DNA of 60,515 bases from an uncultured Anaerolineae bacterium (lineage in GTDB: Bacteria > Chloroflexota > Anaerolineae > J036 > Brachytrichaceae), in contig CALHLE010000064.1 of NCBI GenBank assembly GCA_938034415.1, forward strand, positions 1 through 60,515. Direction: 5' to 3'. The notes under the pieces were generated by a model. That model was not told the DNA's origin. It saw nothing but the letters and a program-made list of their open reading frames with translations, and ran no database searches. The position numbers were made by a program, and so were the translations under genes. Shown here piece after piece: positions 21,568-57,983 of this stretch. Position 1 is the first letter of the stretch. Every line of letters begins with the position of its first letter.

Positions 21568-21924
21568 TCATCCGCCCGCTCGCCCGTGCTCGGCCACGAT
21601 CTCAACGACCACGCCGTGTTCGCGTTCGGTGTGCGCGTGCACCCGCGCCCAGATCGGCCGCAGGCGCTCGAACATGTCATCGAGTATCCGGTTGACGGCG
21701 CTCTCCAAAGACATCGGCGCGTCCTCGAACGAGCGCAGGTATGCCATGAAGCTAGGGAAGTCGAAGAGCACCTCGTTGGGCGCGTAGGTGATCGTCATGA
21801 CGGCGAAGTTCGTCTTCTCCGGCTCCATCTCGTAGCGGCAGCGAAACCCCGGATAGGTCAGCGTCACAGTGTAGGTGCGCAGACTCTTGGTGTTGGGGAT
21901 GGTCTTGATGTCGGCCTGAATCAT
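21568..21924 (-). CDS. QueF-like T-fold protein lacking the catalytic residues
   Basis: The 118-residue protein follows the QueF (preQ0 reductase) outline: TYTVTLTYPGFRC, TNFAVMTITYAPNEVLFDFPSFMAYLRSF, then AVNRILDDMFERLRPIWARVHAHTERE. In QueF the first block carries a catalytic Cys and a following Asp, and the second an ESKS-type substrate motif. Here the Cys position holds a different residue, with a cysteine two or three residues earlier. The Asp is Asn, and the ESK motif is DFPS. So it is probably not a preQ0 reductase. It may bind a pterin- or purine-like ligand as a T-fold scaffold, or have a new activity. No other queuosine gene is nearby. Confidence 0.6.
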   Translation of the reverse strand: MIQADIKTIPNTKSLRTYTVTLTYPGFRCRYEMEPEKTNFAVMTITYAPNEVLFDFPSFMAYLRSFEDAPMSLESAVNRILDDMFERLRPIWARVHAHTEREHGVVVEIVAEHGRAGG

Positions 21925-22011
21925 GGCGTCACTCCCGATTTTGCGTCACACAATCATGTGTCGTCAACTCGTCCTTAGCCTGTGATGCTGGGCCGACGGC
22001 AGAGAGGCGGC

Positions 22012-57716: not shown

Positions 57717-57857
57717 GTCTGTGCTGCCAGGTCGCGCAGCGGAAAGGAGCGCTTGATGCGCTCGCGCCGCCGCGCGCAGACTGCGAAGCATAGGAGCAAA
57801 GCGCGAGAAATGCTCAAACCACGCCGCATGTGCGACCGCTTGCGCTTTGCGCGATAA

Positions 57858-57974
57858 GCCTTCTTTACATCCAGACTGTCACTGTCGGCTCCGGAGTTGC
57901 ACCGGATCCTGCGCGCCTCTCAACGCGCTCGTGGGCTGTACCACCGATCGGGAATTTCACCCTGCCCCGAAGGC
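57858..57974 (-). ncRNA. FMN riboswitch (RFN element)
   Basis: The minus strand shows the RFN conserved blocks in order: TTCGGGGCAGGGTGAAATTC at the 5' side, CGATCGGTGGTACAGCCCACGAGC, AGGATCCGGTG, ACTCCGGAGCCGACAGT, ACAGTCTGGATG, and a closing P1 stem of GCCTTC with GAAGGC. It is about 117 bases long, a compact but complete aptamer. It binds FMN and turns off the riboflavin uptake operon that begins at 57677. The 343-base gap between ribX and the Rieske gene is accounted for by this aptamer, its platform and a hairpin. Confidence 0.95.
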
Positions 57975-57983
57975 CGCTATTGA

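Follow-up and report, generated by a model that had tools for sequence, protein, structure and literature searches.

The QueF-like gene and its predicted fold

The window, that is, the whole 60,515-nt stretch of DNA that was analysed (contig CALHLE010000064.1 of an uncultured Anaerolineae bacterium), carries on its minus strand a QueF-like gene of the form that we call R-type (21568–21924; 118 amino acids), as delineated by its open reading frame, Pfam and NCBIfam profiles, codon conservation and predicted fold. Its start codon is the ATG at 21924, and the coordinates of the frame are exactly those first noted. About 8 bases upstream we read in the sequence a GGGAG (21932–21936, minus strand), a possible ribosome-binding site. 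The window also holds an FMN riboswitch on the minus strand at 57854–57978 (99.4 bits).

The Pfam QueF profile (PF14489) matches the R-type protein at 54 bits (E 2.1e-14; cut-off 27.3) and NCBIfam QueF-II (TIGR03139) at 57.6 bits (E 1e-15), which is below the equivalog cut-off of 86.9. As all PDB sequence matches at E <0.001 are likewise unimodular QueFs, the likeness to QueF is not due to chance. GTP cyclohydrolase I (FolE; PF01227) is absent among the Pfam matches up to E 10. An AlphaFold model (pLDDT 91.5) was built from an input of 49 rows, comprising the window protein, three relatives and 45 viral QueFs; this input alignment placed Cys29 in the column of the catalytic Cys55. In fold searches with the predicted model (Foldseek, VIA-align), the best PDB match was Bacillus subtilis QueF (4f8b; Z 18.1, rmsd 1.5, 117 residues), followed by archaeal QueF-Like and then FolE. 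Consistent with the QueF outline proposed in the initial annotation, the profile match and the predicted tunnelling fold (T-fold) place the protein in the QueF superfamily, and the motifs on which that proposal drew are present as T23-Y24-P25-G26-F27, F40-A41-x3-I45-x-Y47-x-P49 and L63-R64-S65-F66.

Active-site register and substituted residues

For comparison, we built by the same procedure a model of equal confidence (pLDDT 91.5) for L101, a canonical QueF encoded on a viral contig. The strand before the catalytic loop spans 11 residues in both models (20–30 in R-type, 36–46 in L101), as does the strand after it (38–48 and 53–63), and the loop itself is one residue longer in R-type. Because these strand lengths match, we assign Tyr31 (codon 21832–21834, minus strand) to the place of Cys55, and Asn39 (21808–21810, minus strand), which adjoins the shared Phe-Ala, to the place of Asp62. 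Cys29 (21838–21840, minus strand), the only cysteine of the protein and part of the strand 20–30, falls by the same register at QueF position 53, the backdoor cysteine. This register is well supported by the two predicted structures and stops short of proven, because MAFFT instead aligns Cys29 with the Cys55 column; it rests on predicted strand ends, since the fold search yields ranges and not residue pairs. MAFFT also puts residue 36 (Glu in the window protein, Asp in three relatives) on the Asp62 column. The frequency of Cys53 in homologues fits the assignment of Cys29: cysteine occupies position 53 in 103 of the 169 homologues that were matched by the loop pattern (182 examined). In the available parts of PMC5372742, Cys53 is described as a backdoor cysteine, an alternative present in 22% of unimodular QueFs, and as lying near Cys55 in genuine QueFs. 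By strand register, then, the residues for thioimide formation appear to be replaced, as had been claimed, and the cysteine of the FRC motif is predicted to lie two residues before the catalytic place and not in it.

The substrate-binding residues are altered less uniformly. The QueF motif ESKSLKLY reads DFPSFMAY in R-type, agreeing only at the acid, one serine, a hydrophobic residue and the tyrosine; in the alignment its two lysines become Pro57 and Met60. Its first residue, Asp55 (21760–21762, minus strand), stands in the place of Glu78 by models and alignment and is a conservative swap. His96 is replaced by Leu73, and RGG by REHG. By contrast, the residue that anchors the base, Glu97, persists as Glu74 (21703–21705, minus strand), which aligns with it and is invariant in the ten R-type sequences. 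The loss of the substrate site that the initial annotation described therefore applies to the NADPH-binding QueF motif, whereas the base anchor is retained. The QueF criteria in the consulted portion of PMC5372742, which exclude sequences that lack any one of the key features, can be read against the protein directly: Cys55 and Asp62 (by strand register) and the QueF motif with Glu78 are lacking and the Glu97 anchor is present. With three of four residue features failing, the R-type protein is not a QueF by these criteria.

The blocks RYEMEP, FDFP, SLES and REHG are invariant in all ten R-type sequences, and the invariant residues include Cys29, Tyr31, Glu32, Glu34 and His103. Pocket columns are invariant more often (21/27) than columns elsewhere (43/81; p 0.019), for pocket columns chosen after the alignment was seen.

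We compared 182 distinct homologues from 196 loci with a match, keeping one of 80 viral loci as a reference and omitting the other 79. Cys, Asp, Glu and Glu occupy the four key places in 161 of them; the set also includes the ten R-type sequences (in three of which MAFFT set Asp36 on the Asp62 column), one shortened R-type copy and one FolE-like sequence. Cys55 is replaced by Ala in four homologues and by Asp in five. The Ala forms (L091, L093, L181 and L186, from genomes G543, G714, G411 and G679; family code f74) carry FTCLAPDSGFPD and keep the other key residues. Sister sequences with the same family code have the cysteine, and one of these (L182) adjoins a gene recognised by eye as resembling a YhhQ-type transporter. 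The Asp forms (L209, L272, L273, L274 and L275; f80) are a second QueF paralogue with a VDLKTLK-type motif, and the f80 genomes with two matches also carry a canonical QueF (CPWTGLPD, as read in L208 and L210).

Distribution, selection and genomic setting

R-type genes occur in 10 of the 28 genomes of the family, namely all nine of the genus Roseilinea, whose members live in hot springs, and one (G041) of another genus, which is the single carrier among the 19 family genomes outside Roseilinea. Across the class, 69 of 396 genomes have QueF matches over the cut-off, and among those read R-type was confined to the same ten; many weak PF14489 matches were taken as FolE-like, one of them (L063) having been read. 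In a draw of 400 genomes from the phylum, 127 have a match to the R-type model (E 0.001), with scores that fall from 223 to 64 bits beyond four carriers; the lower-scoring matches that were fetched are QueF-like, with f74 and f80 as the exceptions. A scan of a collection of 84,980 species genomes, sensitive to close relatives only, returned three loci, all close relatives. We also considered a viral or plasmid origin and rejected it: neither IMG/VR, searched with the R-type alignment, nor plasmids held a relative, and the one phage match was a QueF at 30%.

The ten R-type sequences form one clade (SH-aLRT 100), the stem of which carries 5.4 changes per column, whereas no branch inside the clade exceeds about 0.4. 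The tree comprises 94 rows, with L043 and L063 dropped and the ordinary rows thinned to about one in two and capped at 70; its few columns and the very long R-type stem leave the sister group of the clade unplaced. Pairwise dN/dS among the ten genes ranges from 0.03 to 0.29 (43 of 45 pairs computable), indicating purifying selection, and the frame is open in every carrier. Rapid change and then strong constraint is a pattern more in keeping with a new function than with decay. In agreement with the conservation that had been anticipated for relatives, the gene is present across the whole genus with the same substitutions and is therefore not a decaying gene. In one carrier (G342), R-type is also present as an additional copy that is shortened and diverged (L043; G342:C2:94553-94795), probably a decaying duplicate.

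The initial annotation had also drawn attention to the adjoining HerA-type ATPase, for which we find no support as a meaningful neighbour. The two genes lie tail to tail in eight of the nine Roseilinea genomes and on different contigs in the ninth (G248); in G041 the only HerA match is distant and does not adjoin the R-type gene; and a HerA match occurs in 16 of the 18 family genomes that have no R-type gene. The proximity of HerA is a matter of position. Immediately upstream of the R-type gene, in the window and at L036 and L041, there is an AraC-type regulator, which lies about 5 kb away at L042; no match to it was seen near the gene at L038, L039 or L040. No constant operon partner was seen among the carrier loci, and no preQ1 riboswitch or other RNA was found near the gene.

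The ten carriers lack matches to the preQ0 pathway: FolE (PF01227) matches in none of the 28 family genomes, carriers included, and the ten have no match to PTPS/QueD, no ordinary QueF and no QueC over the cut-off (one weak partial match in G218, 21.3 bits against 22). TGT, QueA and QueG are present in all ten, as is a YhhQ-family transporter (PF02592), which occurs in 27 of the 28 family genomes. YhhQ-family transporters can carry preQ0, according to the accessible parts of PMC5372724 and PMC11130926. With the preQ0 pathway absent and the TGT–QueA–QueG–YhhQ salvage set kept, the carriers most likely import preQ1. The salvage set is equally present in family genomes without R-type, G003 and G138 among them; salvage is thus independent of R-type, which is an addition and not a needed step. 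Roseilinea also has a second TGT-family gene, interrupted by an in-frame stop in three genomes, split in a fourth and open in G000 (disrupted copies at G248:C65, G218:C1:4589422, G316:C22 and G119:C4:284865-286005); its counterpart adjoins queA in G023 and G086.

Candidate functions and comparison with known T-fold proteins

Since the residues for thioimide formation and NADPH use are missing from the sequence and the predicted pocket, the R-type protein is, on this evidence, not a preQ1 synthase, and its strong conservation despite the lost catalytic residues means that it probably does a different job from QueF. Our first choice, held tentatively, is that it is a neofunctionalised, non-redox relative of unimodular QueF that keeps the base-binding pocket and works by binding. 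It would fold as a T-fold subunit and retain the glutamate that anchors 7-deazaguanine in QueF; a base resembling a purine or a pterin may still be bound in the pocket, the simplest candidate being preQ1 or a related base that the cell imports; and the protein would act through buffering, delivery or sensing, not through catalysis. Against this choice, the salvage set is identical in family genomes without R-type, and neither a nearby preQ1 riboswitch nor a constant operon partner points the same way. The invariant Cys29, Tyr31, Glu32, Glu34 and His103 would, moreover, equally suit a new enzyme. Under that second choice, possible but rather unlikely in our judgement, the pocket would have been remodelled to act on a purine- or pterin-like substrate in a different reaction, drawing on some members of the set formed by these five residues, Asp55 and Glu74; position 53 may have taken over the catalytic cysteine from position 55. 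The four invariant blocks are consistent with such an enzyme, as are the different reactions catalysed by T-fold relatives (fold matches to FolE and DHNA) and the second group that has lost Cys55 and kept Cys53 (the four f74 genomes). Archaeal QueF-Like shows that the same scaffold can drop NADPH use, but that protein keeps both the cysteine and the acid/base aspartate (PMC5485725, in the parts available), whereas in R-type Asp62 is lost too, and no pathway neighbour points to a substrate.

Third in our order, and improbable, is an RNA-binding T-fold protein that would keep the ring assembly and bind tRNA or another RNA in place of a free base. The analogy draws on Synechocystis QueF, which bound RNA in vivo in a PNK assay (PMC12475003, as far as the accessible text goes), and on archaeal QueF-Like, which acts on tRNA (PMC5485725, same parts); the Synechocystis protein is, however, described as an ordinary reductase. 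A preQ0 reductase that remains active through catalytic residues we fail to recognise, and supplies TGT from imported preQ0, would suit the transport of preQ0 by YhhQ-family proteins and carriers without any other QueF. We consider it very unlikely, as other residues stand in place of Cys55, Asp62, the two motif lysines and His96, and the salvage genes are equally present in family genomes that lack QueF altogether. The loss of the preQ0 pathway in the carriers and the shortened copy in G342 would be expected of an old QueF decaying after pathway loss, but ten open frames and dN/dS values that never exceed 0.29 among the computed pairs make a relic highly implausible. Least credible is a partner of the HerA-type ATPase: the adjacency in most of the genus is convergent, and convergent genes are not one operon; the separate contigs in G248, the distant match in G041 and the HerA matches in R-type-less genomes argue against the pairing, and on the distribution across family genomes we rejected it.

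It is conceivable, and we propose it with reserve, that R-type represents an undescribed T-fold family that arose from QueF in importers of a queuosine precursor, with a constrained pocket and a new 7-deazapurine or pterin function, as a preQ1 carrier or sensor or as a non-redox enzyme. Our searches of the available literature found nothing linking QueF with pseudoenzyme, nothing joining QueF, tunneling-fold and catalytic cysteine, and nothing on queuosine in Anaerolineae. Annotation based on Pfam would name the protein a QueF and mistakenly attribute preQ1 synthesis to these phototrophs. The family offers a clean natural case of a scaffold without its chemistry, with the base anchor kept, strong selection and the upstream pathway gone; a ligand, if found, would show what role a T-fold pocket has once QueF catalysis is lost, or would uncover a new reaction.

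Among known systems, the unimodular QueFs (NADPH-dependent preQ0 reductases; TIGR03139, PF14489; B. subtilis 4f8b, 4fgc and 5udg) share with R-type the T-fold, the N-terminal PN block, the FA strand, the YLxSF helix and the Glu97 anchor, and many of them have the same Cys53. R-type departs from them in Cys55 to Tyr, Asp62 to Asn, His96 to Leu, RGG to REHG and ESKSLKLY to DFPSFMAY, and in one extra catalytic-loop residue, at an identity of about 25%. The archaeal QueF-Like amidinotransferase (5jyx, 5k0p) is a T-fold relative (Z 15.8) whose reaction uses ammonia and not NADPH; it retains the thioimide cysteine and the acid/base aspartate (PMC5485725, from the sections at hand), whereas R-type is predicted from its model to have neither. 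The f74 (Ala) and f80 (Asp) homologues have, like R-type, lost the catalytic cysteine and kept the fold region; unlike R-type, they retain Asp62 and His96 along with most of the QueF motif, and they branch elsewhere on the tree.
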